A DNA stretch of 64,000 bases, from positions 1-64,000 of the forward strand of contig NZ_SCOT01000002.1 of assembly GCF_005502465.1 (NCBI RefSeq). Reading direction: 5' to 3'. A model generated the notes under the pieces. It made no database searches. It was not told where the DNA came from and saw nothing but the letters and a program-made list of their open reading frames with translations. Source of the stretch: Sphingopyxis sp. L1A2A (lineage in GTDB: Bacteria > Pseudomonadota > Alphaproteobacteria > Sphingomonadales > Sphingomonadaceae). Shown in pieces: positions 1 through 63,365 of the stretch (position 1 is its first letter; the number at the start of each line of letters is the position of its first letter). Position numbers and translations under genes: made by a program.

Positions 1-124
1 CGATGACGGCTCTGAGCCGTGCGCGGCATCAGATCGGAATCCCGCGCGGGATCAGATCGGAACGATGCGCGTGATCATGTCGGTATCCCTGCGCGGGATC
101 GTCGGAATCCGCAGGCGTCTACAC
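1..124. mobile_element. End of an IS21-like insertion sequence (partial)
   Basis: Four imperfect direct repeats with a core like ATCAGATCGG begin near 28, 51, 74 and 98, a period of 23-24 bases. They end at a CTACA/CTACACA stretch at about 119-125. Read on the minus strand, the element would begin TGTA. Multiple short terminal repeats and TG...CA ends are typical of IS21-family elements, where they bind the transposase. The transposase genes would lie to the left, outside the window. The element interrupts the methyltransferase gene that follows. The family assignment is an inference from end structure only. Confidence 0.5.
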
Positions 125-31068: not shown

Positions 31069-31108
31069 GCCCCTGTGGTGAAATTGGTAGACGCGCCGCA
31101 CTCAAAAT
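31069..31108 (+). pseudogene. 5' half of a host tRNA-Leu, cut in the anticodon loop (element junction)
   Basis: GCCCCTGTGGTGAAATTGGT... has a tRNA-Leu acceptor strand, D-arm and the 5' anticodon stem (CCGCA) followed by the loop CTCAAAA with a CAA anticodon. The 3' part should continue TGCGG and later CAGGGGC, but instead element sequence follows (TGCGTTTAGCC...). The gene therefore breaks at or just after TCAAAAT, 31102-31108, the probable crossover core, next to the integrase gene. The 3' half is not seen in the window. Confidence 0.8.
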
Positions 31109-31184
31109 TGCGTTTAGCCTAAAAAAGTAAGCCAAAAACCACGCAAAACCAATAGTTTGAGCAAGGACGAGACCTCCAAAAAGA

Positions 31185-31204
31185 CTTACACATGTCTTAC
31201 ACAT
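31185..31204. promoter_or_regulatory. Direct repeat upstream of the integrase, possible arm or operator site
   Basis: CTTACACAT occurs at 31185-31193 and again at 31196-31204, an 11-base period of about one helical turn. It overlaps the small inverted repeat AAGAC...GTCTT. It lies 16 bases before the integrase start and between the crossover site and the gene, so it may bind the integrase or a repressor. Confidence 0.4.
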
Positions 31205-31219
31205 TTTGGAGTTCTCGCA

Positions 31220-32506
31220 ATGCCGACAGAAAGCCATCTGCTGATGGATGGGGCGCTGCACGTCTATCGGCGTGAGAACAGCCGCTACTGGCAATGCTCG
31301 ACCTATCTTGGCAGCCGCAACTACCGGCAGACGACCAAGGAGGTCAGCCTTGCTGCCGCCAAGGATTTCGCGCGCGACTGGTATATGGAGCGTTGCGTCG
31401 AGGATCGGCAACGCCGACGCGGTGGTGTTGCCTTGCTGGACGGCACCGTCCAGCCCCCGATCGCCGGAACCGGCGCGCCGACCGATGGTCGGCGTCGGCG
31501 AACGCCTACTGGCCCCAGCTTTAAGGATGCCGCAGACGCTTTCACCAGCGAGTTCGAGGTAATCACGCTGGGCGAACGCAACGCGGAATATGTGGCATCG
31601 AAGTCAGATCACATCCGCGTGCACCTGTTACCATTCTTTGGCGACACCGCGCTTGAGGACATAACGGCCGGCAAAGTGCAGGAGTATCGGGCGCACCGTC
31701 AGACATCGAGGGTCGATCCCAAAACCGGCAAGCCGAAGAAGCCAGCACGCGCGACCTTGCACGGCGAGATCGTCACGCTTCGGCAGGTTTTAAAAACCGC
31801 CAACCGTAAGGGCTGGATTGCGGCAATCCCGGATATGTCAGCGCCCTACAAGACGTCCGGCAAGGTGGAGCATCGCGCGTGGTTTTCGCCTGAGGAATAC
31901 AAGATGCTTTATGAGGCTACGCGCGAGCGGGCCAAGAACCCGCCGAAGCCGCGCTGGCGTGAAGTTTGCGAGACCTTCCACGATTATGTTCTGTTCATGG
32001 GCAACACCGGACTTCGGCCCGATGAGTCCGCTCGACTTGAGCTGCGGGACGTCAAGATCGTGAACGACGAGTCGACCGGCGAGCGCATCTTGGAGATCGA
32101 GGTGCGAGGCAAGCGCGGTGTCGGTTTCTGCAAGTCGATGCCCGGTGCGATCCTGCCCTTCGAGCGCGTTCGCAAGCGCAAGCAGCTCAAACCGACCGAC
32201 CGGATATTCGGGAAGTCGCCGCGCGAATTAATGAACACGGTTCTCGACGAGCTGAATCTGAAGTTCGACCGCGATGGCCACATCCGCACCTGCTACAGCC
32301 TGCGGCATACCTATATCTGTCTGCGCTTGCTCGAAGGGGCGGACATTTATCAGGTTGCCAAGAACTGCCGCACGAGTGTCGAAATGATCGAGAAGTTTTA
32401 CGGGCGCCATTTGAAGAACAACATCGACGCATCGGCCGTCAATGTTCGTAAGGCCAAGCCCCCGAAAGAGGCCGTCCGGAAGAAGACCGCGAAGCGAACG
32501 ACATAG
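31220..32506 (+). CDS. Tyrosine integrase of the element
   Basis: The 428-residue product has an N-terminal part (HVYRRENSRYWQCSTYLGSRNYRQTTKEVSL) like an AP2-type arm-binding domain. A core-binding domain follows at about residues 110-200 and a catalytic domain with GNTGLRPDESARLEL (first Arg), YSLRHTYICLRLLEGADIYQVA (second Arg) and EKFYGRH (Tyr nucleophile). In the usual His-x-x-Arg box the His is replaced by Tyr (YSLR). It should integrate and excise the element at the tRNA-Leu anticodon loop. ATG 31220 is chosen: GGAG lies eight bases upstream, and an earlier frame start overlaps the direct repeats. Confidence 0.88.
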   Translation: MPTESHLLMDGALHVYRRENSRYWQCSTYLGSRNYRQTTKEVSLAAAKDFARDWYMERCVEDRQRRRGGVALLDGTVQPPIAGTGAPTDGRRRRTPTGPSFKDAADAFTSEFEVITLGERNAEYVASKSDHIRVHLLPFFGDTALEDITAGKVQEYRAHRQTSRVDPKTGKPKKPARATLHGEIVTLRQVLKTANRKGWIAAIPDMSAPYKTSGKVEHRAWFSPEEYKMLYEATRERAKNPPKPRWREVCETFHDYVLFMGNTGLRPDESARLELRDVKIVNDESTGERILEIEVRGKRGVGFCKSMPGAILPFERVRKRKQLKPTDRIFGKSPRELMNTVLDELNLKFDRDGHIRTCYSLRHTYICLRLLEGADIYQVAKNCRTSVEMIEKFYGRHLKNNIDASAVNVRKAKPPKEAVRKKTAKRTT

Positions 32507-32566
32507 GCCAAGATGCCGTGTTTGCTGTTGCGTGTTTTGACGGCGGCGCTATAGGCACCTCGCAAC

Positions 32567-32651
32567 GCGGGCGTGGTGGAATTGGTAGACGCGCGGGATT
32601 CAAAATCCCGTTCCGCAAGGAGTGTGGGTTCGATTCCCACCGCCCGCACCA
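32567..32651 (+). tRNA. tRNA-Leu (anticodon CAA), carried by the element
   Basis: The 85-base gene folds as a complete class II tRNA. The acceptor GCGGGCG pairs with CGCCCGC, the anticodon stem is CGGGA/TCCCG with loop TTCAAAA (CAA), a long variable arm follows (TTCCGCAAGGAGT), the T-arm is GTGGG TTCGATT CCCAC, and CCA is encoded. Its acceptor does not match the split host gene at 31069 (GCCCCTG), so it is a separate gene and not the rebuilt host tRNA. It could replace the function lost by integration. Confidence 0.93.
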
Positions 32652-41121: not shown

Positions 41122-42328
41122 TCTGTCCGACGACGAATTGCTCGCCGAACTTGGTGTTAGCGTCGAGCAACAGGCTGCACGCGCCTATACTCCGCAGCAG
41201 GAGCGGATCATCGCGGGCTTTGAGGACATTCTCAAATTCCACGATGCGCATGGTCGAGCGCCGCAGCACGGTGAGCAGCGCGACATATTCGAGCGACTTT
41301 ATGCAGTGAGGCTCGATCGCCTGCGCGAGCTGGAGGATTGCCGTTCGCTGTTGGCAGGCTTTGACAAGCATGGTTTGCTGAAGGTGAACTCGGATGCCAG
41401 CCACATCGTTCCCGATGAGCTGGATGATGATGCGTTGCTTGCTGAACTCGGCATTGATCCTGGCGGTGATGATGACATCACGCAGCTTCGCCATGTGCAA
41501 ACACGGGAAGAAAGGCAGGCCGCCGAAGAGATTGCCAACCGTGAACGCTGCATCGATTTTGCGAAATTTCAGCCGCTGTTTGCCGATGTGCAGCTCGACC
41601 TTGATTCCGGCGTTCGCAGCACCCGCCCTTTCGTAAAGGACGCCGGATTTCTGAAAGCCGACATTGGCACGGGCCAATTTTTCATCCTGGGCGGCCAGAC
41701 AGCCTATGTGGCTGAGGTTGGCGAGACCATTAAGGCCCCAAATGGCGAGTTCGACGCCCGTTTAAGGGTCATCTATTCCAATGGGACGGAGAGCAACCTG
41801 TTGCGCCGCTCCCTGCAACGCGCGCTTTACAAGGATGACGCAGGGCGGCGCATTACCGATCCAGCGGCGGGGCCGCTCTTCTCTGACAATGCGGGCAAAG
41901 ACGACACCGAAAGCGGGACCATCTATGTCTTGCGGAGCAAGTCCGACCATCCCCAGATCGCCAAGCACCGTGACCTGATCCACAAGATCGGCGTGACGGG
42001 TGGCAGTGTTACGACGCGCATTGCGGCAGCGGAGAACGACGCGACCTATCTGCTGGCCGGCGTCGAGATCATCGCCGAATACAAGCTGTTCAACATCAAC
42101 CGGACGAAGCTGGAAAAGCTGATCCACCGATTTTTCGCTGATGCCGCATACGACATCCAAATTACTGATCGCTTTGGTAGGCCTGTGCGACCCCGCGAGT
42201 GGTTTCTCGTCCCGCTCTATGCGATCGATGAGGCTGTTGAACGAATACGAGACGGATCGATTGCGCTGTATATGTATGACCCAAAACACGCACGTTTGGT
42301 TCAGCGAGAATTAGGCGCGCAAGCCTGA
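41114..42328 (+). CDS. GIY-YIG nuclease family protein (T5orf172/MUG113-like domain)
   Basis: The 404-residue product starts in the last codons of the helicase gene (eight-base overlap). The N-terminal half is acidic and helical with repeated SDDELLAELG and DDDALLAELG segments. The C-terminal part GTIYVLRSKSDHPQIAKHRDLIHKIGVT (Tyr271, then the IG pair), AEYKLFNINRTKLEKLIHRFF and the DRFGRPVRPREWFLV tail match the T5orf172/MUG113 variant of GIY-YIG nucleases. It is probably a DNA nickase or nuclease. Its stop and the drt3a ATG share one base (TGATG). Confidence 0.83.
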   Translation: MVDLSDDELLAELGVSVEQQAARAYTPQQERIIAGFEDILKFHDAHGRAPQHGEQRDIFERLYAVRLDRLRELEDCRSLLAGFDKHGLLKVNSDASHIVPDELDDDALLAELGIDPGGDDDITQLRHVQTREERQAAEEIANRERCIDFAKFQPLFADVQLDLDSGVRSTRPFVKDAGFLKADIGTGQFFILGGQTAYVAEVGETIKAPNGEFDARLRVIYSNGTESNLLRRSLQRALYKDDAGRRITDPAAGPLFSDNAGKDDTESGTIYVLRSKSDHPQIAKHRDLIHKIGVTGGSVTTRIAAAENDATYLLAGVEIIAEYKLFNINRTKLEKLIHRFFADAAYDIQITDRFGRPVRPREWFLVPLYAIDEAVERIRDGSIALYMYDPKHARLVQRELGAQA

Positions 42329-43674
42329 TGCTCGATCAAATGTTCACCGCGGAAAACTTCCGTCGTATTTATGATTCAGAGAATCGCAAAGGCCTTGATC
42401 TGGCCACTCGCTACTTCCCGGATCTCGAACCGCACACGCTCGCTGTGCGCGACAAGGTGCAGGATATTCGTGATCTGCGCAAAATCGAAATTACGCTGAC
42501 GGCAGATGATTTCGAGGCACAGCTGCTCGCCTTGAAAGGCGAGCTAGCAGTCTTGAAGATAGCAAAATCATCTGCGGTTGATGCACTGATGGAGGAGATC
42601 AGCCAAAAGGTTCTCAAGCGAACCTTCAAGATCGACCTGTCGCAGAAGGTCGGGCCACAGGGAAAGCCGGTCTACTGCATCGATGCGGAGCCCGAGACGT
42701 TCTTCGTCATCAAGCAGCTCCAGCGAAACATCCACCGCATCTACGGTGTGAAACAGGCGAACCGCCACGACTTGGTGTGCCAGCTTCGGGACATGCTCGG
42801 CAGCAGCTTTCCTTTCGAGCTGGTTCGCACTGACATTTCGTCGTTCTATGAGAGCGTCGACCGCAAGCAGCTGGTGGAGAAACTGGACCAGGACCAGCTT
42901 CTGAGTCCGGCGTCGAAGAAATACATCAAGCAAGTGCTGGATTCTTACGGCGCGATTTCCGGCACCGCGATCGGCATCCCCCGTGGTGTAGGTATCAGCG
43001 CCTATCTGGCCGAGCTTTATCTGCGTCCCGTCGACAAAGCGATCAGGGCAATTCCCGGCCTCGTCCTCTATTGCCGATTCGTCGATGACATCGTGGCCGT
43101 GTTCGCACGACCGCCCGCAGGTAAAAGCCTTGGTTCATTCAAAGACCTGATCATTGCGATTTTCGTCGAAAATGCGCTCACACACAACGCCGCAAAAACC
43201 GCAGAATTCAAGCTCCCGGACACGGCTTCCCAGGAGTTCGAGTATCTGGGTTATCGCTTTACGTGCATCGGCGATAAGTTCGCGGTTTCTCCGAGCGTTG
43301 CAAAGGTGGAAAAATATCGTGCGCGAATGAATGTCTCGTTTGACGACTATTGGCACGAGCGTCCGGTGAACCCAAAAGGGGCTTTTCGCAAGCTGGTCGG
43401 ACGGGTCAAGTTTTTGACTGGTAACACTCGGCTTGCCAACAGCAAGTCCCGTGCGGTTACGGGCATCTATTACAACAACTCAATCGTGACCGACCTGTCG
43501 GATTTTGAACAGCTCGATAAGGAGCTGAAAGTCCTCGTCACAGCGACGAAGCGCACGACCCTGCAAAAGCAGTTGAAGAAGCTCAAATTCACTACCGGCT
43601 TCGTGCAACGCCGGTATCACAATTTCAGTACGAGAGAGTTGCAGATGATCGTGAGGGCCTGGAAGCATGGCTAA
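42328..43674 (+). CDS. drt3a: Antiviral reverse transcriptase Drt3a-like (UG3)
   Basis: The 448-residue product is a reverse transcriptase: motif A VRTDISSFYESVD with Asp169, motif B GIPRGVGISAYLAELYL, and motif C YCRFVDDIVAVF with Asp253-Asp254. The ~100 N-terminal and ~130 C-terminal residues do not match retron or group II intron domains. The pairing with a second, larger reverse transcriptase fits DRT type 3 (UG3 plus UG8), a phage defence system that makes DNA with an associated RNA. In reported DRT3 systems Drt3a copies an ACACAC tract in the RNA to poly(GT). It is coupled to the upstream and downstream genes. Confidence 0.83.
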   Translation: MLDQMFTAENFRRIYDSENRKGLDLATRYFPDLEPHTLAVRDKVQDIRDLRKIEITLTADDFEAQLLALKGELAVLKIAKSSAVDALMEEISQKVLKRTFKIDLSQKVGPQGKPVYCIDAEPETFFVIKQLQRNIHRIYGVKQANRHDLVCQLRDMLGSSFPFELVRTDISSFYESVDRKQLVEKLDQDQLLSPASKKYIKQVLDSYGAISGTAIGIPRGVGISAYLAELYLRPVDKAIRAIPGLVLYCRFVDDIVAVFARPPAGKSLGSFKDLIIAIFVENALTHNAAKTAEFKLPDTASQEFEYLGYRFTCIGDKFAVSPSVAKVEKYRARMNVSFDDYWHERPVNPKGAFRKLVGRVKFLTGNTRLANSKSRAVTGIYYNNSIVTDLSDFEQLDKELKVLVTATKRTTLQKQLKKLKFTTGFVQRRYHNFSTRELQMIVRAWKHG

Positions 43675-45739
43675 GCGGCGCGTCTCTCTCACGCACCGAA
43701 AGCAGCGTTCTGTCCTCACCGACATGCTGCCTTTCGAGGTGCCGCCGACTTTTTCCAACCGGGGCTATTACCGGTTTCTGCGAGACAACAGTGTCGAGAT
43801 TGAAAATGGCCATTTGCGCTGGATCAGCAAAACCGACGTCCTTGATCGTACAATGCGCCTTCTGTTCGGAGTTTTGCCCAGCGCAGGGATCGCGGAAGAG
43901 ACCCTGACCGAATGGGGCAAGGAAAAAACCCGCAGGTTCGTGCCCCTCAACAAATGCCAGATGGCGACGATCCCTTTCAATTTCCGGGTCGCGCACAATC
44001 TCGACGGGCGCACGTTGAGCGTCGTGCATCCGCGCAATCAGGTTGCGGTAGCGAGCTTTTACGCCACCCACAGCGCGCTCATCATTTATCACACGTCGGT
44101 CAGCGAGTTTTCGATCCGCCGACCGGTGTCGGTGTCTCGCTACGCCTACTTCAAGGACAAACTCCACGAAGAGCGGCTGGATTCCGTGGCGGGTGTGGAG
44201 GAGGAGGACCGGGAGTACGAGCAGCTCGGCTCCTATTTCGTGTACCGGAAATACCGAAACATCCATCGCTTTTTCGAATCCTACAAATATCACCGCAGCG
44301 AGAAAAAATACGACGCGATGGTGCAGATCGACGTGAGTAAGTGCTTCGACAGCATCTACACCCACTCGCTGCCTTGGGCCGTTTTAGGCAAGGACCAGAC
44401 AAAGTTCAGCCTCGAAGAATCGAAGGGCACTTTCGGCGGACACTTCGACGCCCTCATGCAGGGCCTGAATCATAAAGAGACCAATGGCATTGTGATCGGT
44501 CCCGAGTTTTCACGGATTTTTGCCGAGATCATTTTGCAATCGGTCGATGCCGAGCTGATCAAACAGTTGGCCGAAGGGGCCAACCTGAAACACAAGGTCG
44601 ATTACGAGATTTTCAGGTACGTCGATGACTTCTTCGTTTTCTACAACGAGGAGTCGACCCAGCTAAAGATTTTCGAGACGCTCCAGGAAATCCTCAAGGG
44701 CAGGAAGCTCAGCATCAACACGGCGAAGATCAAGCACTACCAGAAGCCGATCATCACCGAGATCACGGTCGCGAAAGAGCGCGTCTCGATGCTGCTGAAC
44801 GACGAGATCAATCCGGTTTGCGAGGAGGAGCCGCCGGCCGATCCGGCCAAGCCGCCGAAACAGAAGCTCGTGTGCGGCATCAACGCGAACCGGCTGATCA
44901 TTCGTTACAAAGCCGCCATCAAGGAGACAGGCGTCACCTATGGCGACCTGCTAAATTACACATTCGCGATTATCGAAAACAAGGTCGAGAAGCTATTCAA
45001 GGCCTTTGTTGCGAGCGACAAGTCAGACCGCGACCGTAAGCGTCTCTCCAATGCGTTGCTGGCGATCTTGGAGTTTGCCTTCTTCGCCTATTCGGCGAGC
45101 CCGAAGGTTAATCACACCATCCGCATTTGTCGGATGATCGCGACCTCTGTGGACTTCCTGCACGCCCAGAATTTACCCTACGAACAGAAGCACCTGCTGT
45201 TCAAGTATGTCCACGACAACGTGATGCAGCAGCTTGAAAAGAACACGATGAGCGTCCATCGCGAGGTCGAAAGCCTCTATCTGCTCATCTCGCTCTCGCA
45301 GATCGGTCGCGAATATTGGATGCCGGTCTCCGTGCTGCTCCGACACTTTCTGATCACGGAGGAGGAGGGCACGGGGGACTACATACGTCCTACCGGGTTC
45401 ATGAACCATTTTTCGGTCACGATCCTACTGTCCTATATAAAGGACAAGGTCAGGTATGCGAAGCTGAAAACCTTCATCGAGGGGCATATCATCGCCAAAC
45501 TCGAATACATGAAGGCCCATTGTCCGAACGACGCCGAAACGCTTATCATGCTGCTCGATCTCGTCGTATGTCCTTACATCAGTGCCACCACCAAGAATGC
45601 CATAGGACTCATTTTCGGACTGGACGCGGTGGGTCTCGCGTCAGTCAAATCCGCAAACGATCACTGGTTCACTGCCTGGGGCGATAAGTTCGATCTCGGC
45701 AAGGAGCTGGACGCGAAGCGCAGTCGTGAGGTATACTGA
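43667..45739 (+). CDS. drt3b: Antiviral reverse transcriptase Drt3b-like (UG8)
   Basis: The 690-residue product starts inside the end of drt3a (eight-base overlap). Motif A is QIDVSKCFDSIYTHSL with Asp222, motif B GIVIGPEFSRIFAEIIL and motif C FRYVDDFFVFY with Asp320-Asp321, so the polymerase centre is intact. A long helical C-terminal region (about 400-690) follows, as in the larger partner of DRT3. In reported DRT3 this protein makes the complementary poly(AC) strand without a nucleic acid template. The candidate non-coding RNA lies right after its stop codon. Confidence 0.83.
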   Translation: MAKRRVSLTHRKQRSVLTDMLPFEVPPTFSNRGYYRFLRDNSVEIENGHLRWISKTDVLDRTMRLLFGVLPSAGIAEETLTEWGKEKTRRFVPLNKCQMATIPFNFRVAHNLDGRTLSVVHPRNQVAVASFYATHSALIIYHTSVSEFSIRRPVSVSRYAYFKDKLHEERLDSVAGVEEEDREYEQLGSYFVYRKYRNIHRFFESYKYHRSEKKYDAMVQIDVSKCFDSIYTHSLPWAVLGKDQTKFSLEESKGTFGGHFDALMQGLNHKETNGIVIGPEFSRIFAEIILQSVDAELIKQLAEGANLKHKVDYEIFRYVDDFFVFYNEESTQLKIFETLQEILKGRKLSINTAKIKHYQKPIITEITVAKERVSMLLNDEINPVCEEEPPADPAKPPKQKLVCGINANRLIIRYKAAIKETGVTYGDLLNYTFAIIENKVEKLFKAFVASDKSDRDRKRLSNALLAILEFAFFAYSASPKVNHTIRICRMIATSVDFLHAQNLPYEQKHLLFKYVHDNVMQQLEKNTMSVHREVESLYLLISLSQIGREYWMPVSVLLRHFLITEEEGTGDYIRPTGFMNHFSVTILLSYIKDKVRYAKLKTFIEGHIIAKLEYMKAHCPNDAETLIMLLDLVVCPYISATTKNAIGLIFGLDAVGLASVKSANDHWFTAWGDKFDLGKELDAKRSREVY

Positions 45740-50925: not shown

Positions 50926-51480
50926 ATGGCGACAAATTCTGGGCCAACCACTGCGATGCTAAGCGTCCGCGTCGATGCGCAGGCGCTTACGGCGTTCGAT
51001 AGCTTCGCGGTCGGTCGTGGCGGTCGGAGCGCTCTGGTGCGTCAGATGATCGAACGGACGCTGCAAGAGAACAGCGACCGACCCCATATCGACCGCCCGG
51101 AGGGCGCCGCGCGCAACCGGATCTCGCTGCGGTTTACTGAGGTCGAAATTGCCGTGATCGCGCACCGCGCATCACAGCGTTCGACCGATCGCGCCGGCTG
51201 GATCAAGGCATTGGTGCGCCGCCACCTTGCTCTGAAATCACGGGTCGATGACGGCCTGCTTGCTGAACTCGCACCGATCAGAATGCAGTTGCTCCGCATC
51301 GGTCGCAATCTCAATCAGGCGATGAAGGCCGCCAATGCAGCCATGCTCGAAACCGGCGACAGGAAGATCGAACCCGAGCTGCGACGGATCGCCGATATGC
51401 GGATGGAGATTTCCGAGCAGGTCGCAGCCGTCGGCGATGCCATGCGCGGCGATGCGAGCTATTGGACGGTGGCCGACTGA
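50926..51480 (+). CDS. mobC: MobC-like mobilisation protein
   Basis: The 184-residue product has an N-terminal ribbon-helix-helix segment (MLSVRVDAQALTAFDSFAVGRGGRSALVRQMIERTL) and the C-terminal MobC pattern PIRMQLLRIGRNLNQAMKAAN. It probably binds the origin of transfer and helps the relaxase to nick. ATG 50926 is chosen over TTG one codon before. Its TGA shares a base with the relaxase ATG (TGATG). Confidence 0.82.
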   Translation: MATNSGPTTAMLSVRVDAQALTAFDSFAVGRGGRSALVRQMIERTLQENSDRPHIDRPEGAARNRISLRFTEVEIAVIAHRASQRSTDRAGWIKALVRRHLALKSRVDDGLLAELAPIRMQLLRIGRNLNQAMKAANAAMLETGDRKIEPELRRIADMRMEISEQVAAVGDAMRGDASYWTVAD

Positions 51481-52538
51481 TGGCGATGGGATCAAGCCTG
51501 GAATCAGCCGTGTGGGAAGCGAGCCGTCCGCCGTATCGTGTGCGCTATATCCACGATCCGGGCGCTCAGCCCGGCGTGCCGCTTTACGCCAGCTACGGTG
51601 TCGCCAATCCGAAGACGGCGCGCGCCAAGCTGGCGCGGATCGTGCGCGGCGCGCCCGAGGTGGTGGTCAAGGTCACGGGCCGCCAGCGGGGCGGCAGCCA
51701 TGTCAAAGCCCATCTCGACTATATCGGGCGGAAGGGGGCGGTCGACATCGAAACACGCGATGGTGAAATCCTGACCAGCAAGGACGACATCGCCGAGCGT
51801 GCGGCCGAATGGAGCGATACGCTTGAATGGCGGTCGCGGCCAACGGTCGCGTCGGTGTCGCTGATCTTCTCGATGCCCGAAGGCACTGACCCTGACAAGG
51901 TGCTGGGAGCCGTTCGCGCGCTGGCCCATGCCGAACTCAGCGACAATCACGATTATGTCTTGGCGCTTCATACAGACACGCCGCGTCCCCATGTCCATCT
52001 GACGGTTCAGGCCGAAGGGTTGGACCGCAACCGGTTCAATCCCAGACCGGTTCAGCTTCACCGCTTTCGCGAGCGGTTCGCCCGCGAACTGCGCGAGCGC
52101 GGTGTCGCCGCGGAAGCCACGCCGAGACGGGCGCGTGGCAGGGGAGTTGCCGGATCCAGCATTAGGCTGGTCAAACTTCGTGCCCGTCTGTCGAGCGGGG
52201 CCAGCGGCGTGATGACCAACGCTGACCGGCGAACTAACGAGCAGGCCATCGCCGTTGCGCGCGGTCAGGCCAGACTTCCATGCTTTGTCGCCAAAGGGAA
52301 AACCCGCTGGCAGGCGATACGCCAAGCCTACCGCCAGGCGGCTGCCGCGCTGGATGCCAGTGGCCAACCGGATGATCGGGCTCTCGCAAGGGACGTTCGG
52401 AGATTCCTCGACAAGCAACCCGACGTACACGCCACGCCCGAAATCTTTGCCGCGCGTCATGTCGAGGCCCTGTCGGCAGCACGCGCGAAACATGATCCGC
52501 CAGTTCCTATGCCGCCCCCGCACGATCGAGGGCGCTAA
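51480..52538 (+). CDS. MobA/VirD2-family relaxase
   Basis: The 352-residue product has a MOBP-type relaxase core: GSHVKAHLDYIGRKG at about 65-80, and HTDTPRPHVHLTVQAEGLDRNRF, the metal-binding HUH-like histidines. A basic C-terminal part follows. It nicks the origin of transfer and pilots the strand to the VirB/VirD4 channel encoded at the right of the window. It is coupled to mobC. Confidence 0.85.
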   Translation: MAMGSSLESAVWEASRPPYRVRYIHDPGAQPGVPLYASYGVANPKTARAKLARIVRGAPEVVVKVTGRQRGGSHVKAHLDYIGRKGAVDIETRDGEILTSKDDIAERAAEWSDTLEWRSRPTVASVSLIFSMPEGTDPDKVLGAVRALAHAELSDNHDYVLALHTDTPRPHVHLTVQAEGLDRNRFNPRPVQLHRFRERFARELRERGVAAEATPRRARGRGVAGSSIRLVKLRARLSSGASGVMTNADRRTNEQAIAVARGQARLPCFVAKGKTRWQAIRQAYRQAAAALDASGQPDDRALARDVRRFLDKQPDVHATPEIFAARHVEALSAARAKHDPPVPMPPPHDRGR

Positions 52539-52752: not shown

Positions 52753-54429
52753 ATGTCGAAGGAAATGGTTCTCCGGAATGGGAATGTCGCCGGCATACCG
52801 GCGGCGCAGTACATTCGCATGTCTACTGAGCATCAGCGATATTCTCCTGACAATCAAAAAGCCGCTATCGCATCGTTCGCCGACGCGCGCGGATTTGAGG
52901 TCGTTAAAACCTATCTCGACGCGGGCAAAAGCGGTCTCTCTCTTGCGAGGCGCGATGGCCTGAAACAACTGCTCAGCGATGTCATCTCGGGAGAGATCAA
53001 CTTTCGTGCTATTTTGGTTCTCGACGTTAGTCGCTGGGGTAGGTTTCAGGACACTGACCAAGCGGCGCATTACGAATATCTGTGCCGCGAAGCGGGAGTA
53101 CAACTCCACTACTGCGCGGAATCATTCGAGAATGACGGCGGCGCCATCTCGTCGATCGTCAAACATATGAAGCGAGTCATGGCGGCAGAATATAGCCGCG
53201 ATCTCTCCGCTCGCATTTCGCGTGCCCAACGGCAGCAGGCTAAGCTCGGTTTCAAGATGGGCGGAATGGCTCCGTACGGCACCCGGCGCCAAGTGGTCGA
53301 CGAAAGCGGAAAGCGTCGAATGACGTTGAAGCCCCGCCAGCGAAAGGCGCTCAGCACTGATAAAGTAATCTACGCCTTGGGACCGCCGGCCGAGGTCGAA
53401 GTGGTGGAGAGGGTTTTTCGCGACTACGCGATCCGCAGAAAGAAAATGACCGAGATCGCGCGTTGGCTCAACGACGAGAAGCGCAAGCATCCGATGCGCG
53501 AGATTTGGACACCCGACATCGTGCGATGCATGCTGAAGAACGAAATATACATCGGCACCCTTGTCTTCGGCCGCCGCTATATGAACCTCGGTCGCACTAT
53601 TAGGTTCGACGAGAAGGACTGGATCAGGGTCGCAGTGGTCCAGCCCGCCGTGTCGGTTCAACTCTTCGAAGCCGCGGCGCGGCGATTGAAGCGCTCCGCA
53701 GCCTCCAAGAGGCCGTTATCGATGCAGGAACTTACTGAGGGGTTGGCTCGCCTATATGAGGAAAAAGGGAAGCTATCCCACGCGATCATAACGAAATGTC
53801 GCTACCTCCCTGTGCCGTCCGTTTTTGCCCGCCGGTTCGGATCGCTCGAAGCAGCCTATACCGCGGTAGGTTTTACTCCGCAGCGTCATTTTCAGATCAA
53901 CGAGGCTGGCCTGCCATTCAGCGACGAAGAGCTGCTTGATCAGATCCGGAGAATCCACCGCGAGCAAGGTCGGCTCACCATCGACCTCATAGACAAAGAC
54001 CCTTTGGTACCGAGCCGCTCGTACTTTATCGCACGCTTTGGCGGTTTTCGAAACATTGTCCGCCTCGCTGGCTTGCCAATACCGCCGCGGTCGCAGCGCG
54101 ACGTGGCAGGAGAGGCAAGGCAGCGCGCCCTTTATGAAACGAAGGCAAACCGAAAGGCGCCCTGTAGCCGGAACGAGGATGGTAAGAAGTTCACCAACGA
54201 GCAGATAGTCAGCAAACTTAAGTCGCTGCTTGCTGAGAAGGGATATTTGTCGCGCCCTTTGATCAATGCGGATGGTCGCGTACCGATGAGCCATGCGGTT
54301 GCACTCAGGTTCAACGGGATGCTCAATGCGTACGCCGCTGCAGGATACTATTCGACGCAGAGTCAGGTTAACAAGGCGGCGATGGCGCGCGCGATGGGAA
54401 CATGGGTCTCGCCATTTTTACGATCATGA
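52753..54429 (+). CDS. Large serine recombinase 1
   Basis: The 558-residue product has a resolvase domain (AAQYIRMSTEHQRYSPDNQ with nucleophile Ser24; LVLDVSRWGRF; ARISRAQRQQAKLGFKMGG) and a recombinase domain (EIARWLNDEKRKHPMREIWTPDIVRCMLKNEIYIG). The C-terminus then carries three repeats of ~50 residues, each ending like RFGSLEAAYTAVGF, RFGGFRNIVRLAGL and RFNGMLNAYAAAGY. These look like homing-endonuclease-associated repeats rather than the usual zinc-ribbon/coiled-coil part. GGAGG precedes the ATG. It is paired with a paralogue 52 bases downstream. Confidence 0.87.
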   Translation: MSKEMVLRNGNVAGIPAAQYIRMSTEHQRYSPDNQKAAIASFADARGFEVVKTYLDAGKSGLSLARRDGLKQLLSDVISGEINFRAILVLDVSRWGRFQDTDQAAHYEYLCREAGVQLHYCAESFENDGGAISSIVKHMKRVMAAEYSRDLSARISRAQRQQAKLGFKMGGMAPYGTRRQVVDESGKRRMTLKPRQRKALSTDKVIYALGPPAEVEVVERVFRDYAIRRKKMTEIARWLNDEKRKHPMREIWTPDIVRCMLKNEIYIGTLVFGRRYMNLGRTIRFDEKDWIRVAVVQPAVSVQLFEAAARRLKRSAASKRPLSMQELTEGLARLYEEKGKLSHAIITKCRYLPVPSVFARRFGSLEAAYTAVGFTPQRHFQINEAGLPFSDEELLDQIRRIHREQGRLTIDLIDKDPLVPSRSYFIARFGGFRNIVRLAGLPIPPRSQRDVAGEARQRALYETKANRKAPCSRNEDGKKFTNEQIVSKLKSLLAEKGYLSRPLINADGRVPMSHAVALRFNGMLNAYAAAGYYSTQSQVNKAAMARAMGTWVSPFLRS

Positions 54430-54481
54430 GACCTTCTCGCATCGATTAGCGTTGCCACGCTGAGGGAGAAGGAGTGGCCTG

Positions 54482-56167
54482 ATGACTGAGAACCTACCAG
54501 CGTCGCCGATACCGGTCGCGCAATATTTGCGCATGTCCAGAGATCATCAGCGCTATTCGATCAGGAATCAGGCGCGTGCGATCTCGGACTACGCCGCGCA
54601 GCATCACTTCGAGATCGTGAAGACCTACACCGATCCCGGCGAGAGCGGCCTGACCTTGAGGCAGCGCCCGGGACTTCAAGCATTGCTAGCCGATACGATG
54701 AAGCCGATCCGCTCCTTCGCCCGAATCTTGGTCCTAGATGTCAGCCGTTGGGGGCGGTTTCAAAACCTAGACGAGAGCAGCCATTACGAGTTTATATGCC
54801 TCGAAGCTGGGGTGCCGATTATCTATTGTGCGGAGCCCTTTGAAAACGACGGCACGCCGGTCATGATGCTGCTGAAACAGATCAAGCGACTGCAAGCTGC
54901 GGAGTTTAGCCGGGAGCTATCTGAAAAAGTAATTTACGCACAGCTTCTACAAGCGAAGATCGGCCACAAAATTGGCGGCCCCCGCCGGTACGGTTTCGAC
55001 CGAATGCTCGTCGATCAGCACGACAGGCCGATCCAGAAATTAAAGCGCGGCGAAACGAAAGCTCTGAACTGCCAGCGCGTCGTTTATGTCAGAGGTTCGG
55101 ACCAAGAGGTACAGGTAATTCGCGACATTTTCGCCTGGTTTACGCGCGACCGCATGAGCATGAAAGGGATCGCAGAGCGCCTGACCAATATGGAAATTCC
55201 TGCTGGCGATCGAGATGTCTGGAGCGCAAACATAGTGCGCCGCATTCTTTCTGACGAACTTGTATTGGGCATTTATGTCTTCAATCGGACGACGCAAAGA
55301 TTGAAGAGCAAGATGCGTCGGAACCCGCCCGAAGCTCTGATTAAGACCAAGGTGACCGAGCCAATCATCAGCCGGGTTCAATTTGCATCGGCTGCACAAC
55401 GGTTGCGCATAAGACGGCGCAAAGTTCCTCGGGAGGAAAATTTGGCGGCCGTGTCCCGCCTGTTGCGCAGCAAAGGGTACCTCACCGGACGGTTGATCGA
55501 CCAATGCCTTTACACCCCGAGCACGACCGTCCTCAGGCGGCAGTTCGGAAGTATGGCCGAGGTCTACAGACAGTTGGGTTATGTCACAAAGGATCGCTGG
55601 TGTCCGCGCGGTGGCATGGGTCCTTCATCAAAGAACGAAATCCTCGCCCAGCTGCGTCGCCTCCATGATCGTCTCGGCTATGTAAATGAGCACATAATCA
55701 ACGAACATCCCGATGTTCCCAGCTGCAGCGTCCTCCAGCGGCATTTTGGCAAGTTGACTGAGGCATATCGGCTTGCCGGGATTCCATTCGGTCGCACAGA
55801 ACTGCAACGTATGGGTCACGAGCGATGGATGGCCAAAAGAGCCGGCGAAACCCCTCGTGAAACGATCGCCCGCCGATGGCCCGAACTGGCTAGCCGATTC
55901 AGCGACGACGATTTGCTCGAATGTCTCCGTCGGCTTCAAAAGGAACATGGGTATGTGACGGCGCAAATCATTCGTGACGATGAGCTTTCGCCCACACCCC
56001 AACTCTTCACTACGCGTTTCGGCTCGCTCCTGAATGCTTACGCAAGCGCAGGCTTAGAAAACCGTCGGTCCAAAATTTGGAGCAGGGCCGCAACAGCGCA
56101 ACATGCAGTACGAAGGGCTCATCGCGCGGATGCAAAGGCCAACGATCAAGGCAACACCGCCGGATGA
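54482..56167 (+). CDS. Large serine recombinase 2
   Basis: The 561-residue paralogue of the preceding gene has VAQYLRMSRDHQRYSIRNQ with Ser19, LVLDVSRWGRF, and a recombinase domain (GIAERLTNMEIPAGDRDVWSANIVRRILSDELVLG). It has the same three C-terminal repeats (QFGSMAEVYRQLGY, HFGKLTEAYRLAGI, RFGSLLNAYASAGL). GGAG lies before the ATG. The two proteins share layout but are clearly diverged, so they may act as a heteromeric pair to move their own DNA or the element. Confidence 0.87.
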   Translation: MTENLPASPIPVAQYLRMSRDHQRYSIRNQARAISDYAAQHHFEIVKTYTDPGESGLTLRQRPGLQALLADTMKPIRSFARILVLDVSRWGRFQNLDESSHYEFICLEAGVPIIYCAEPFENDGTPVMMLLKQIKRLQAAEFSRELSEKVIYAQLLQAKIGHKIGGPRRYGFDRMLVDQHDRPIQKLKRGETKALNCQRVVYVRGSDQEVQVIRDIFAWFTRDRMSMKGIAERLTNMEIPAGDRDVWSANIVRRILSDELVLGIYVFNRTTQRLKSKMRRNPPEALIKTKVTEPIISRVQFASAAQRLRIRRRKVPREENLAAVSRLLRSKGYLTGRLIDQCLYTPSTTVLRRQFGSMAEVYRQLGYVTKDRWCPRGGMGPSSKNEILAQLRRLHDRLGYVNEHIINEHPDVPSCSVLQRHFGKLTEAYRLAGIPFGRTELQRMGHERWMAKRAGETPRETIARRWPELASRFSDDDLLECLRRLQKEHGYVTAQIIRDDELSPTPQLFTTRFGSLLNAYASAGLENRRSKIWSRAATAQHAVRRAHRADAKANDQGNTAG

Positions 56168-56692: not shown

Positions 56693-57478
56693 TCAGCGTG
56701 TCCGTCCCTCGCGCATCAATGCCTGATCCTGCGTGACTTCTCGGACGCGCTGCGTTTGTTGGTTACGCACATGAATTGCCGCAATCTTGTCGCCATTGGC
56801 AATGCGGCGAGCCACCTCGTGACGCTTGGCCTCGACTTCCTGCAATGCCTTCACCGGATCTTCGGGATATTTCGAGCGCGTGATCGAGATGGTTTGGGCG
56901 ACAAGGCTTTGGGCGCGGCGCAGTTCGGGGTCACGAGCATTTTGCTCGTGGGTCTGGCTCAGGAAGCGTTCCGACATGGCTTTGCGCGTGATTGTCTCTT
57001 CGGTCGGACGGGGTGATTTGCCCGTTGAGCTTTTAGCTTCGCGGCGCTTGTCGGGCTCGGCGAGCCGCGTTTGCAGCCGGACAGCTTCGGCTTGGACGAC
57101 TTTCGACGGCGTGTAATTCTCGACCGTTAGGCCTCGTGCGGCTGCAGCAAGAAATGCGGCCTTCTTGAACGTATCGCCGCCATTGATCCTGATTGACGTC
57201 CAGCCATTGGCCTTGGCGATCCGCACGATGTCGGGAAGGGCGTCGATCTTGCTGGTCTTGAGCCGGTCGGGTTCGAGGCGGGCAATCGGATTTTTATCAT
57301 CCGTAGTGCGATAGAGTGCATTGCCGACACGCAGGAATTTTCCGGTCAGGTCGTCGGTGAGGGTGGGTGTTTCGGCTTTGCGCTTCAGCTTCGCCGTCTC
57401 CGATTTGGTTTTGTCCGGCTTCGGCATTGCCTTGCGGCTGCGTCCTGAAGAGGCATCGCCATCTTGTTTATTCGCCAT
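56693..57478 (-). CDS. LPD7 domain protein (conjugation-associated)
   Basis: The 261-residue product has a lysine-rich N-terminus followed by the LPD7 domain (FLRVGNALYRTTDDKNPIARLEPDRLKTSKIDALPDIVRIAKANGWTSIRINGGDTFKKAAFLAAAARGLTVENYTPSK), known from the C-terminal regions of conjugative relaxases and large polyvalent proteins. It may be a partner of the relaxase. The ATG at 57478 overlaps the virD4 stop by 11 bases, so it is the last gene of the T4SS operon. Confidence 0.8.
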   Translation of the reverse strand: MANKQDGDASSGRSRKAMPKPDKTKSETAKLKRKAETPTLTDDLTGKFLRVGNALYRTTDDKNPIARLEPDRLKTSKIDALPDIVRIAKANGWTSIRINGGDTFKKAAFLAAAARGLTVENYTPSKVVQAEAVRLQTRLAEPDKRREAKSSTGKSPRPTEETITRKAMSERFLSQTHEQNARDPELRRAQSLVAQTISITRSKYPEDPVKALQEVEAKRHEVARRIANGDKIAAIHVRNQQTQRVREVTQDQALMREGRTR

Positions 57479-59306
57479 TTTCGTCACCTTCCTCGATAAG
57501 CCCAGATACATTGCCGTCATGATCCAGCGTCAGCATGTCGGCGAAGAAGCTCGGGCAATCTGCGGTGAGGACATCATCTTGTGACATAGGCCGGGTCTCG
57601 TGCCCGGCGGCCTCTTCGGCGGTCATGTCGCGGAACAGCGCGGGCAGCGCGGTGCCAGGAGTTCGCTTAGGCGCGGCCGGCACTTTCGGCGCTGGAAACG
57701 CACGCTTTTTGAAAAAGCGGTTGCTGAAATAGGCAATCTTCGTGCCGACGATCGGCGGAATGCCGCCGCGCAGGAGGATCAGCTTATCGGTTGGAAACTG
57801 CATGAGTTCCTGCGGCAACAACAGAGCGCGGCGCTGTTCCGCGATGGATTTCGACCGATTGGCGAGGAGACCATTGATCGTGAGCGACCTGGTGACGCTA
57901 TCCTGTCCGACATAGCCGATCCTCTCGGACAGGTGGCTGGCGACGCGCAACTCCTTGGGCGTGAACGCCACTTCGACACCGCAATTGGCGACGATTTCAT
58001 CGGCGACATGCTCTCCGTAAACGCCGCGCAGTTGCGAGCGTGACTGGATGACGGGCATAAGCCTGATGCCGTAGCCCGCGACATAGGAAAAGGCGCTGGC
58101 GATGACCGATGCCCGGCCGAGCCGTGCAAATTCATCGAGAATGACCAGCAACGGCACGGCTGAGTGTTCGTCGGGCAATTCGCGCACATTGAGATCGACG
58201 AGCTGCTGGAACAGAAGATTGTAGAGCGGCGCGATCCGGTCGAGTTCATCAGGCGACACGCCGAGATAGATCGACATGGGGTGTTTGCGGAGCTGTCGAA
58301 GATCAAAGTCGCTTGCCGCTGTCGCGGCATCGACAAGGGGGTTGAGCCAGAGGCCAAGGACATTGGTGATCGTCTTTTTAATGTCGGCAAAGCTGTTGTC
58401 CGAGCCGCCGGCGAAATCAGCGAGCGCCGTTCGGCAGCCGACCGAGAGGTTCAGTCCGGGATTGGCGATTTCCTTTTTGAAAAAGATGCGTGCATCGCTA
58501 TCCGTCATATGGCGATAGATGGCACCCATCGTCAGCGGTTCGGTGCTGGTTTCGGCGAGCCAAGCACCAACGCCTGCAAATCCGGTTCGCGCGCCATTCG
58601 CCCAAAAGGCTTCGCCGTGGTCGGGCGCAACAAAGAGCATCGTTGCGATCTTCTGCAATTCGATGATGACGTCATCCGGGTCATTGCAATCGATATAGGC
58701 GAGCGGATTGTAGCGGGCGGTGCGGCCTTCGCGGTCGGTCGGATTAAACAGATAGACCGCCTGCCCGTAATGGGCACGAAACCCCGCGCTCGCTTCGTAA
58801 TTCTCGCGCTTCACATCGAGGACGACGACCGAGCCAGCCCATGTCAGCAGGTTCGGAATGACGATGCCGACGCCTTTGCCCGAGCGGGTAGGGGCTTCGA
58901 CAATGACATGCTCGCTTCCGCCAAAGGTCAGGAAGCGCCCGCCCTTCCGGCCAAGAACGATGCCGGAGCGTGCGCGAAATCCGTGGCGCCTGATCTCGCT
59001 TTCGCGAGCGAAACGCGCGGCTCCGTGGAGCGGCGCGCCGCGCGACCAAAGCGCATAGATCAGGCCTACCAGGATTAGTCCGCCGCCGATCAGTCCGCCT
59101 GCCATCGCGCGGACAACACGGGCGTCGCCGCGATAATACCAGACGAACTGCGGCATTTTGAGGGGATCATAGGCGGCGACGGGCAGGCCGAGGACTAGCC
59201 AGCCGATCATGGTGGCGATGGCGAGCGCGATCAGCACACCGAGCGGAATGCCGACCAGCAATCTAGCCGTCGCGCCGCTAGGCGGCGTACCTGCCTTCCG
59301 GGTCAT
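57468..59306 (-). CDS. virD4: VirD4/TraG coupling protein
   Basis: The 612-residue ATPase has two N-terminal transmembrane helices (LLVGIPLGVLIALAIATMIGWLVLG; GGLIGGGLILVGLIYALW), Walker A in EAPTRSGKGVGIVIPNLLTW, Walker B-type LVILDEFARLGRAS and QSRSQLRGVYG. It links the relaxase-DNA complex to the secretion channel at the inner membrane. Its start lies inside the 3' end of virB11. Confidence 0.92.
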   Translation of the reverse strand: MTRKAGTPPSGATARLLVGIPLGVLIALAIATMIGWLVLGLPVAAYDPLKMPQFVWYYRGDARVVRAMAGGLIGGGLILVGLIYALWSRGAPLHGAARFARESEIRRHGFRARSGIVLGRKGGRFLTFGGSEHVIVEAPTRSGKGVGIVIPNLLTWAGSVVVLDVKRENYEASAGFRAHYGQAVYLFNPTDREGRTARYNPLAYIDCNDPDDVIIELQKIATMLFVAPDHGEAFWANGARTGFAGVGAWLAETSTEPLTMGAIYRHMTDSDARIFFKKEIANPGLNLSVGCRTALADFAGGSDNSFADIKKTITNVLGLWLNPLVDAATAASDFDLRQLRKHPMSIYLGVSPDELDRIAPLYNLLFQQLVDLNVRELPDEHSAVPLLVILDEFARLGRASVIASAFSYVAGYGIRLMPVIQSRSQLRGVYGEHVADEIVANCGVEVAFTPKELRVASHLSERIGYVGQDSVTRSLTINGLLANRSKSIAEQRRALLLPQELMQFPTDKLILLRGGIPPIVGTKIAYFSNRFFKKRAFPAPKVPAAPKRTPGTALPALFRDMTAEEAAGHETRPMSQDDVLTADCPSFFADMLTLDHDGNVSGLIEEGDENGE

Positions 59307-60288
59307 AATAGATCTCCGTCACCCGAAATTCGCCATCGGTCTTTTTGGTTTGCACCACGACATCGACCAGCATCTTGAGCAGCGCGCGAATATCGCAGCG
59401 GGCCAGATCGGAACCGCCTTCGCTTTCTTTCACCAAAAGCGTCAGCTGCTCGAACGCTAATTCGGCGGAATCGGCATGGATGGTGGTGATCGAGCCGGGA
59501 TGGCCGGAATTGACGTTGCGCAAATAGAAAAAGGCAGTCCCGTCGCGCAGTTCTTGGAGCAGGATACGATCGGGGCGCATCCTGAGCGCGCTTTCGAGCA
59601 GATGTTTAGCAGTGACATTGGCAGTGCCCTGACCGTCCTTGGCATAGAGCATATGGACGACGTTCTTTTGACCGACGATCAGTTCGCGCGTGTCCTCGAT
59701 CGTCAGCAACCGCTCGTCGGGCGGGATCAACTGGATCAGGCCCTTCGACAGCGTAGTCTTGCCTGATCCCGTTGCCCCCGAAATGAGAATATTGAGCCTG
59801 GCCTTCACCGCGCGGTCGAAGAATTCGACATGACGGCCTGATTGCAGAAGTGCGAGCAACTCCAATTCCTGCGGAGTTACTTTCTTTTCCGAGATTCGCG
59901 TGTCCCTGAAAAGGCCAGCCGCCTCGAAATCGGCAAGTGTCATTGTCACGGTCGATGGCTTTCGCACAGTGATCGAGACCGTTTCGTCCGGCACGACGGG
60001 TGGCACGACGATTTGCACGCGCTCGCCAGTCGGGAAGATTGTAGAGACGATGGGGTTTTCGCGGGTGACATCCTGCGAGGTAAAGGCGGCGGCGGCAGTC
60101 GCGAGCGCCATGAGTGTCTTGAAATCGAGTGAGGGTTCGCTTTCCCAAGTCCAGCGCCCGCGTCGTTCAATCCCGACCTCGCCGGGCAAATTGATGACCA
60201 GTTCGGTGACGCTCGCGTCATCGAGATATCTGCGTAAGGGTGCAGTCACGCTGTCGAGGACAGCGGTGTTTTTGCCCGGTGCGGCCAT
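59278..60288 (-). CDS. virB11: VirB11-type secretion ATPase
   Basis: The 336-residue product has Walker A (ILISGATGSGKTTLSKGL), the Asp box LLTIEDTRELIVG, and the His box region with LRMRPDRILLQELRDGTAFFYLRNVNSGHPGSITTIHADSA. It is a hexameric traffic ATPase of the type IV system. It is coupled to virB10 upstream and virD4 downstream. Confidence 0.93.
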   Translation of the reverse strand: MAAPGKNTAVLDSVTAPLRRYLDDASVTELVINLPGEVGIERRGRWTWESEPSLDFKTLMALATAAAAFTSQDVTRENPIVSTIFPTGERVQIVVPPVVPDETVSITVRKPSTVTMTLADFEAAGLFRDTRISEKKVTPQELELLALLQSGRHVEFFDRAVKARLNILISGATGSGKTTLSKGLIQLIPPDERLLTIEDTRELIVGQKNVVHMLYAKDGQGTANVTAKHLLESALRMRPDRILLQELRDGTAFFYLRNVNSGHPGSITTIHADSAELAFEQLTLLVKESEGGSDLARCDIRALLKMLVDVVVQTKKTDGEFRVTEIYYDPEGRYAA

Positions 60289-61481
60289 TATTTCAGCGCG
60301 AGGCCGTAAACGGTCGAGAAGTCGAAGTCCTGCGCCACCGTGATCCCGACATCCTCGCCCTGATTCTTGCGCAGCACCGGCTTGATCTCGGCATTTTGCT
60401 GCAAGACAGTCGATGCCGCATCGGAGGGGACGCGCGTGGTGTTCGAGCCGTTATTGCCAACGGCTTCCGACCCGACGGTCGCCGCATCTTCGACAAGGCT
60501 GAACAGCAGGGCTGTGCCAAAACGCTGCCAGAAGAAATTATTGACCCGGCCATCCACGCCGCCGCGCCCGAGTGCATCAGTTGCGGACGATCCGACATCG
60601 ATCGCAATCCCGCGCGGCGTTACGGCACGCGTCCACAGGACGAACAGCCGGTATTGCCCGCGGTTGATGCCACCCTGATATTCGCCAAAGATCTTGGTGC
60701 CTTTCTCCATCAGCACAACCCGGCCATTGTCCGAATAGACATTGCGCGGAAGAATACAGCTCACATAGCCCGGCTGGCTTGAATCCATCGCGGTCTGCAA
60801 CACGCACGGAATGAAGCTTCCCGCCGTAATCAGGAAATTGCGGTCGGGAAGCGCGCGAGCCTGCGCCTGTCCGATGACCGAGCCACGCCGAAGCCTGTCG
60901 AGATTGGTGAGTTCGGGGGATGGTGAAAGACCGGGATTGGCCACAGTCCCATGGTCGCCGTAACGAACGCTTCCACCCGCACTCTCGCGTTCCCCGCCAT
61001 AGGCGATCAGCGATGACCGACGCGTGGCTTCGCGCAGGGCTTCGGCCGGGGATTGCTGGCCGGGCTGTTGGAGTGCTGCTGACGAACCTTGTTGCGGGCC
61101 GATGGCGGGTACGGCCGGTTCTCCAAGGGAAATGGGGGCGTCGGGGTCGGCTGCCGCCTCCGCCAGTGTCGGTGCGATAACCGTTGCTGGGTCATATTGC
61201 GCGGGCTCGAGCGCGGGTTTGGGTTTGACGGGTGGCAGAGTCGTATTGCCCGTCAGTCCGGTTCCCAGCGCCAGGACCGTGAACATGACGGCGCCTGCGG
61301 CGGCGGCCAGGCCGATCATCTTTTTTGGATCCATCGTGGTGCCGGAGATCGACGGCATTTTGCTACCGCGTTCGGAGGCGGGGGTGCGATCAATCTCGTC
61401 GGGATCGGGTGTTTGATCGACGGCGGGGCGATTGGCGCCTCGGCCTGAGGCGCGTTCCGGGTCAACTGTGTCGGCCATCAT
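60288..61481 (-). CDS. virB10: VirB10/TrbI-type protein
   Basis: The 397-residue product has a cytoplasmic N-terminus, one transmembrane helix (MIGLAAAAGAVMFTVLALGTGL), a proline-rich periplasmic linker and a C-terminal beta-domain (FLITAGSFIPCVLQTAMDSSQPGYVSCILPRNVYSDNGRVVLMEKGTKIFGEY). It spans both membranes in the core complex. The ATG overlaps the virB9 stop. Confidence 0.92.
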   Translation of the reverse strand: MMADTVDPERASGRGANRPAVDQTPDPDEIDRTPASERGSKMPSISGTTMDPKKMIGLAAAAGAVMFTVLALGTGLTGNTTLPPVKPKPALEPAQYDPATVIAPTLAEAAADPDAPISLGEPAVPAIGPQQGSSAALQQPGQQSPAEALREATRRSSLIAYGGERESAGGSVRYGDHGTVANPGLSPSPELTNLDRLRRGSVIGQAQARALPDRNFLITAGSFIPCVLQTAMDSSQPGYVSCILPRNVYSDNGRVVLMEKGTKIFGEYQGGINRGQYRLFVLWTRAVTPRGIAIDVGSSATDALGRGGVDGRVNNFFWQRFGTALLFSLVEDAATVGSEAVGNNGSNTTRVPSDAASTVLQQNAEIKPVLRKNQGEDVGITVAQDFDFSTVYGLALK

Positions 61482-62344
61482 TTCGTCTCCCCATCAGTAC
61501 CAGATGTGCGCTCGACGATGCTGGACGCGGTGCCGGTCTTGGGATCGCGCCCGTAGAATTCCGGAGCCTCGTTGAAGACGCACAGCACCTCTTTGCCGCG
61601 CCGCAAACGGAGCTGGGCAAAGACGCCGTGGATCACGACAAATTCGTCGCGGACATCGAACGGGACGATGCTCTCGCCGCCATCGGGATTGACGGCGAAG
61701 AACGCAGGAAGCTCGCGCTGGTTAGGAAAGCGCAGCGCAGTGAACTGGCCATTGTCGGTAATTTCGGACGGTTGAATCGCGGATGATCCCTGCACACTAT
61801 ATTGGAGGTTGCGCTTGCCTTCGAGGACCGCGAGGTCGAGGGCCGAGCGGATCGCGCCCGATTGAAGGGCCGTGGCTCGCGCGTATGCGGCTTGCGCCGC
61901 CGCCGCTTGTGCCGCGGCGGCTTCCTCGCGCGGATAGCGAAACACGACCTTGAAGAATGTGTCGGCGGACCGCGCGCCGATGCTCCCGCGCCGCGCCGAC
62001 AGTTCGAATGTGTAGCTGCGGCTCCCGGCGTCGGAACGCGTGATCACGATCAGATTGGTCGCTCCGGCCAGTTCGCGTGGTTTGATGAACAGCGAATTTT
62101 CAGCCGGCGCCACCTCCCACGATACGCTGTCGCCGAGCGCGACATGCTCGACCCGTTCACCCGCTGAAAATACGATCTGTGTTGCCGAGCGGAACGCGCC
62201 GACAATGCGGTAAACTTCGGCGTCGCTATAGATCGCTTCGCGGATTCTGCTGTCCTGCGCGGTAGGGTGCGGCGTCTCGCTGGCGCGTGCGGCGCCGGCG
62301 GAGAACATCAGGGCGATGGCAATGATGCCGTGTGCAGTCTTCAT
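61478..62344 (-). CDS. virB9: VirB9/TrbG-type protein
   Basis: The 288-residue product has a signal peptide (MKTAHGIIAIALMFSAGAARAS), an N-terminal domain (FSAGERVEHVALGDSVSWEV, IKPRELAGATNLIVIT) and a C-terminal beta-sandwich (LQYSVQGSSAIQPSEITDNGQFTALRFP) that lies in the outer-membrane ring with VirB10. Confidence 0.9.
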   Translation of the reverse strand: MKTAHGIIAIALMFSAGAARASETPHPTAQDSRIREAIYSDAEVYRIVGAFRSATQIVFSAGERVEHVALGDSVSWEVAPAENSLFIKPRELAGATNLIVITRSDAGSRSYTFELSARRGSIGARSADTFFKVVFRYPREEAAAAQAAAAQAAYARATALQSGAIRSALDLAVLEGKRNLQYSVQGSSAIQPSEITDNGQFTALRFPNQRELPAFFAVNPDGGESIVPFDVRDEFVVIHGVFAQLRLRRGKEVLCVFNEAPEFYGRDPKTGTASSIVERTSGTDGETK

Positions 62345-63027: not shown

Positions 63028-63032
63028 GATGC

Positions 63033-63353: not shown

Positions 63354-63365
63354 GGCCCTATCCCT

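Follow-up and report, generated by a model that had tools for sequence, protein, structure and literature searches.

The systems closest to the one considered here are described in two papers on phages. Lysogeny that depends on a phage-encoded tRNA was reported in 2024 for actinobacteriophages (Fionnbharth, cluster L and Gaia) by Guerrero-Bustamante and Hatfull, who showed the tRNA requirement by experiment (PMC10865867); the article also mentions a Lactobacillus prophage. As described there, these phages resemble the present element in using a tyrosine integrase that targets a host tRNA gene, in not reconstructing that gene and in carrying a cognate tRNA. Their common core (about 8-11 bp, against 15 bp here) is likewise short, and Gaia, too, sits at a tRNA-Leu-CAA gene with its own tRNA downstream of int. 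Phages akin to these that do reconstruct the gene lack the tRNA, as do most restoring relatives of the present integrase. The published systems are, however, phages of Actinobacteria, whereas the present integrase lies on a conjugative element of Alphaproteobacteria. The second paper (PMC11476347) describes Lo5R7ANS-like prophages integrated at tRNA-Leu(UAG) in two Sinorhizobium meliloti strains. Here also the host belongs to the Alphaproteobacteria, the gene is cut centrally and its place is taken by an isoacceptor from the phage that resembles the host tRNA by 80.6% at most; the differences are that these are prophages, found in two strains and with another anticodon. Prophages without tRNA-dependent lysogeny are dealt with in PMC12429752. 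Islander-type tRNA-targeting islands (PMC4383910) share the tyrosine integrase, the tRNA target and the tRNA fragment marking the ends, but in their case an identical segment serves to restore the gene, which does not happen with the present element. A literature search, with most subscription journals outside its reach, found no ICE with a replacement tRNA and no intron-bearing cargo (as the element-borne tRNA is called below). The principle is already known from phages; what appears to be new is the ICE family, the fixed int-tRNA cassette, the co-switching of isotypes and a possible self-protection.

The DNA analysed (the window) is a stretch of 64,000 nucleotides from Sphingopyxis sp. L1A2A, on the contig designated C22. 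The 5' half of the host tRNA-Leu(CAA) gene, GCCCCTG...ACTCAAAAT, occupies positions 31069-31108 (+ strand, attL side); it is cut in the anticodon loop, ends with TCAAAAT at 31108 and is followed by non-tRNA sequence. The 3' half lies outside the window, at C22:80909-80960, where it ends with GGGGCACCA and is preceded by non-tRNA DNA without a 5' half. The initial annotation had the host gene stopping at about 31108 and not rebuilt at this end; this proved correct, and the far end holds no rebuilt gene either. Joining the two host flanks in silico yields a complete 85-nt tRNA-Leu(CAA), with the right flank's tRNA-Ser(GGA) coming next. A 15-bp core, CGCCGCACTCAAAAT, at 31094-31108 (+) is common to the far end (C22:80901-80915), and a pattern search of the whole assembly found the core again at C22:80893-80915. 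From core to core the element measures 49,807 bp (49.8 kb; C22:31094-80901); the portion at 31094-64000 (+) falls within the window and the rest continues to C22:80915, the right end being outside. Two direct repeats of CTTACACA at 31185-31203 (+), with a second pair at C22:80828 and 80840, are presumed arm-type integrase sites. There are two matches per end (0.26 expected in the window and 0.14 in L044), and their location just inside both ends would fit such a role. In the terms used for tRNA-dependent integration, attB lies within a host tRNA gene that is reconstructed at neither attL nor attR, the common core is short, and the tRNA carried by the element is of the isotype that is disrupted.

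The tyrosine integrase (428 aa; 31220-32506, +) matches PHROG integrases (E 7.7e-23). Its residues R266, R362 and Y394 are invariant in an 18-member alignment; we take them to be the catalytic R...R-Y of tyrosine recombinases, with Y359 in place of the usual H of HxxR. The Pfam integrase catalytic domain gave no match at E 0.001, the one Pfam match being a weak N-terminal one. Among the best 80 of 180 matches, the closest named integrases are from Sphingopyxis. The cargo begins 60 nt past the integrase stop codon: it is a tRNA-Leu(CAA), complete with CCA, at 32567-32651 (+), identical to the host gene at 66 of 85 nt. This agrees with the initial annotation, which had placed a complete tRNA-Leu of the same anticodon, with a different acceptor stem (GCGGGCG, not GCCCCTG), after the integrase. 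Just upstream, a pattern scan picked out a promoter-like TTGCGT-16-TATAGG (32528-32555, +); a stricter consensus scan returned no promoter at the window's cargo. When the 50 nt upstream of family cargos were collected, with L116, L212 and L214 merged as duplicates, TTGNNN-16..18-TA[TC]NNN was present in 53 of 70 distinct sequences against 3.0 expected from mononucleotide shuffles, a count to be read with the caveat that many of the 70 are related and so not independent. Capture of a promoter from the host tRNA gene was also considered; the orientation would allow it, but the cargos have their own promoter-like site.

The assembly (3.7 Mb, 71 contigs) contains 42 tRNA matches, a single one of which, the cargo, is typed by ARAGORN as Leu(CAA). 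The remaining Leu genes among them are UAA, UAG, CAG and GAG, and no second intact tRNA-Leu(CAA) was found in this assembly. Within the host family a complete tRNA-Leu(CAA) was found by pattern in 190 of 199 genomes, nearly always as one match each. When 21 Sphingopyxis genomes, including the present one, were searched with the left flank plus 5' half as query, loci from 19 other genomes were returned. Sixteen of these have a complete GCCCCTG-type tRNA-Leu(CAA), although the upstream gene is matched in just a part of them, so that identity of the locus is not established for every one. Two others (L227 and L234) have the same kind of element junction; the last (L242), which has no tRNA, was set aside as a chance match.

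A MobA/VirD2-like, MobP1-like relaxase (51462-52538, +) and conjugation genes for VirD4/TraG, VirB11, VirB10, VirB9, VirB8 and VirB6 (57468-63980, - strand) were identified with Pfam, as were VirB5, VirB4 and a VirB1-like transglycosylase farther along C22, past the window. Integrase, relaxase, coupling protein and type IV secretion system thus all lie between the two att sites and, given the relaxase and the VirB/VirD4 genes, the element is by content an ICE and not a phage. It does not qualify as a temperate phage. A phage origin was rejected: the integrase has no match in 50,697 phage records, and viral contigs yielded one locus. ParB-like and LuxR-like regulators are also encoded. Two further groups of genes were noted in passing: a defence island at 42328-45739, comprising a DRT3 pair (Drt3a, Drt3b), an MmeI-like type IIG enzyme and a Fic protein, with a PDC-S26-like nuclease upstream; and, near the relaxase (52753-56167), two large serine recombinases side by side, each with HNH-associated repeats. 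VirB4 was also looked for in 17 other genomes whose two ends lie in simple order on a single contig, and a match between the ends was found in 7, so that not every member of the family need be an ICE; the other ten may hold smaller or different elements.

These data make it very probable that the element is an ICE which integrates by breaking the host tRNA-Leu(CAA) and replacing it. The tyrosine integrase would act on the DNA of the host gene's anticodon loop, recombining it with the short core of attP; the common core is too short for the gene to be rebuilt at either end, and the element would supply a complete tRNA-Leu(CAA) directly downstream of the integrase, apparently from its own promoter. 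The sequences themselves show that the gene is split and rebuilt nowhere, that one intact copy is present and that anticodons match throughout the family. We infer that the cargo is expressed and charged, compensates for the split gene, is selected for that role and is needed for growth. Replacement would also free the element from needing identity with the 3' half of each host's tRNA. That the broken tRNA is replaced by a cargo copy had been suggested in the initial annotation, and the suggestion agrees with both ends of the element, with the empty site seen in relatives, with the census of tRNAs and with the family-wide pattern described below. A strategy described in phages is thereby extended to conjugative elements, and to a family of integrases that occurs in Alphaproteobacteria and some other phyla. 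A core translation gene is seen being replaced by mobile-element copies, annotation rules that count on one end having a rebuilt tRNA are broken, and the many natural target/cargo pairs could serve as tests of what an anticodon-loop integrase can or cannot cut.

Related integrases were surveyed by scanning contigs, the best 80 of 180 matches being taken as loci, which gives 81 with the window. A tRNA 5' half lies just upstream of the integrase in 70 of the 81: 55 are Leu-CAA, 9 read as Leu-UAA and 6 Ser, those of L102, L104 and L134 having been read by eye. The other 11 comprise 2 with a complete tRNA-Arg and 9 with neither; no tRNA was found near the integrase at L095, L097 and L098. Among the 67 of these 70 loci with at least 250 nt after the integrase, a cargo of the same anticodon was found in 58 (57 within 200 nt, one at 1.8 kb), the matches spanning Leu-CAA, Leu-UAA, Ser-CGA and Ser-UGA targets; 9 of the 57 are intron-bearing. 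Eight of the 67 have no adjacent cargo. Six of them (L082, L083, L084, L085, L092 and L096) have a complete CAA gene farther along the same contig and L113 has one on another contig; the remaining locus, L129, was outside this follow-up. The one mismatch by label, L121, has UAA at attL and a CAA cargo. A CAA gene is what its 5' half matches, yet there is a T at anticodon position 34 of its attL, which suggests a crossover upstream of position 34.

A model of the 3' half was then used to look for both ends in 39 genomes, and the ends could be paired in 31. Of the eight left unpaired (G002, G003, G007, G019, G024, G032, G037 and G038), some either lacked a second match or had a complete gene where the sequence was fetched, and the far-end candidates of G024, G037 and G038 were outside the fetched set. 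Joining the ends restored a complete tRNA-Leu(CAA) in all 31 paired genomes, and attP and attB share ACTCAAAA in 30 of them, the attP of G025 being GCTCAAAA.

On a tree built from 98 integrases (a quick tree, with SH-aLRT support only), at least 14 changes of the target label are needed, against an average of 27.0 for shuffled labels; the well supported branches alone force 5 changes for the Leu-CAA and 5 for the Leu-UAA label. Wherever both are readable, the cargo follows these switches. The label was taken from the cargo for L065, L109, L110 and L128 (which have no readable 5' half), L309 and L312, and was set by default to Leu-CAA for L060 and L081 (neither half nor cargo), so that the match is not tested by these rows. 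Within the clade from L087 to L134 the targets are a mixture of Ser-CGA, Ser-UGA, Leu-UAA and Leu-CAA, and wherever the contig extends far enough each has its own cargo. L312, only distantly related to the integrase (49% over the matched part), is followed by a complete tRNA-Leu(UAG), a further isotype.

The cargo could instead serve the element's own translation or counter tRNA-cutting defences, the split being incidental since tRNA-Leu(UAA) covers UUG. A tRNA-Leu(UAA) might indeed read UUG by wobble, the present genome has one (on C24), and the element carries the defence island mentioned above (DRT3, type IIG, Fic). This explanation leaves out of account the tracking of the disrupted isotype by the cargo anticodon across repeated target switches and the behaviour of restoring relatives, those with a complete tRNA (Arg, Met or Lys) at the integrase: 9 of 10 such loci, three of which have the same integrase, lack such a tRNA in the 1.1 to 2.3 kb read downstream. 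At L317 Met is restored and another Met tRNA lies downstream. We consider a function in translation or defence unlikely.

The cargo might also be a gene that imprecise excision once took from an earlier host and that is now decaying. Comparison of cargo and host gene speaks to this point. The two are identical in none of the 27 genomes with an adjacent cargo and both ends, the number of identical positions ranging from 61 to 85. Some cargos are near their present hosts, the closest pairs being those of G015 (3 differences) and G026 (2 differences; 85/87 nt identical), as would be expected after capture. Conversely, one identical cargo is held by 8 genomes whose host tRNAs represent 5 different sequences, and this presence across diverse hosts, together with the fixed position after the integrase, the intact folds and the recurrent promoter-like site, argues against decay and makes capture of this kind very improbable. 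The cargo sequence, as judged from these comparisons, travels with the element. Finally, classic restoration, in which the host gene would be rebuilt at one end and the cargo be an extra, is the usual rule of tRNA-targeting islands and is seen in the relatives with Arg, Met or Lys targets, whose integrase end still has a complete tRNA, but both ends are incomplete here and in 30 other genomes and the far-end sequence refutes it at this locus, leaving it next to no likelihood.

It is quite possible, though we would stop short of calling it probable, that the elements shield the replacement tRNA from their own integrase, by a C32 to U change in CAA cargos, within the presumed recombination overlap, and by a group I intron at U34/A35, the cut point of the target, in UAA cargos. 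C32 is present in 31 of 31 reconstructed targets, and U32 in 23 of 27 adjacent cargos of paired genomes; C32 is among the differing positions in both of the closest host-cargo pairs, G015 and G026. In a wider set of 50 plain Leu-CAA cargos, 39 have U32; counted by distinct sequence, the figure is 20 of 30. By comparison, among the matches listed from family genomes without the integrase, U32 occurs in 5 of 140 (150 listed, minus 10 from integrase-bearing genomes; counted by eye). U32 was rejected as a universal rule, 9 of the 50 plain Leu(CAA) cargos having ACTCAAAAT and 2 having TCTCAAAAA.

Cargos beside a UAA 5' half are intron-split in 8 of 8 cases among the best 80 of 180 loci, L121 being set aside as a CAA gene. 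A tRNA-Leu split by an intron in the anticodon loop directly follows int at L089, L090, L103, L108, L127, L131, L132, L133 and L135; in L127 the intron is in a CAA cargo. For six of these nine introns the Rfam match to group I reaches the gathering score, the other three falling below it (E 5e-8 or better). ARAGORN run without its intron option misses the intron-split cargos and gives wrong isotypes for several; their anticodons were read from the expected splice site. Further intron-bearing UAA cargos are those of L215, L217, L304, L305 and L309, while L128 is a counter-example, a UAA cargo without an intron. That the intron is an invention of the elements finds no support, intron-bearing tRNA-Leu(UAA) being found also away from this integrase in several genomes of the class. 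Should the proposal be true, an anticodon-loop group I intron would be a DNA-level shield against tRNA-targeting integrases, and such shielding could partly explain the persistence of group I introns in anticodon loops. The intron-bearing cargos offer a testable reason for the presence of these introns at that position.

Some loci of the family have unusual arrangements. At L065, L109, L110 and L128 the core upstream of the integrase is flanked on both sides by element-like DNA and arm-like repeats, with no tRNA half; these junctions may be attP of tandem or circular copies. In G001 a complete tRNA-Leu(CAA), a lone 3' half and the cargo lie on one contig of that genome (positions 39102, 64686 and 763767 of its own C22), and no single insertion accounts for their order. 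At L060 (and also L208) the integrase is accompanied only by the 5' half of a cargo, cut in its own anticodon loop, and the left end is outside a tRNA; L060 looks like a mini-element formed by recombination at the cargo itself.
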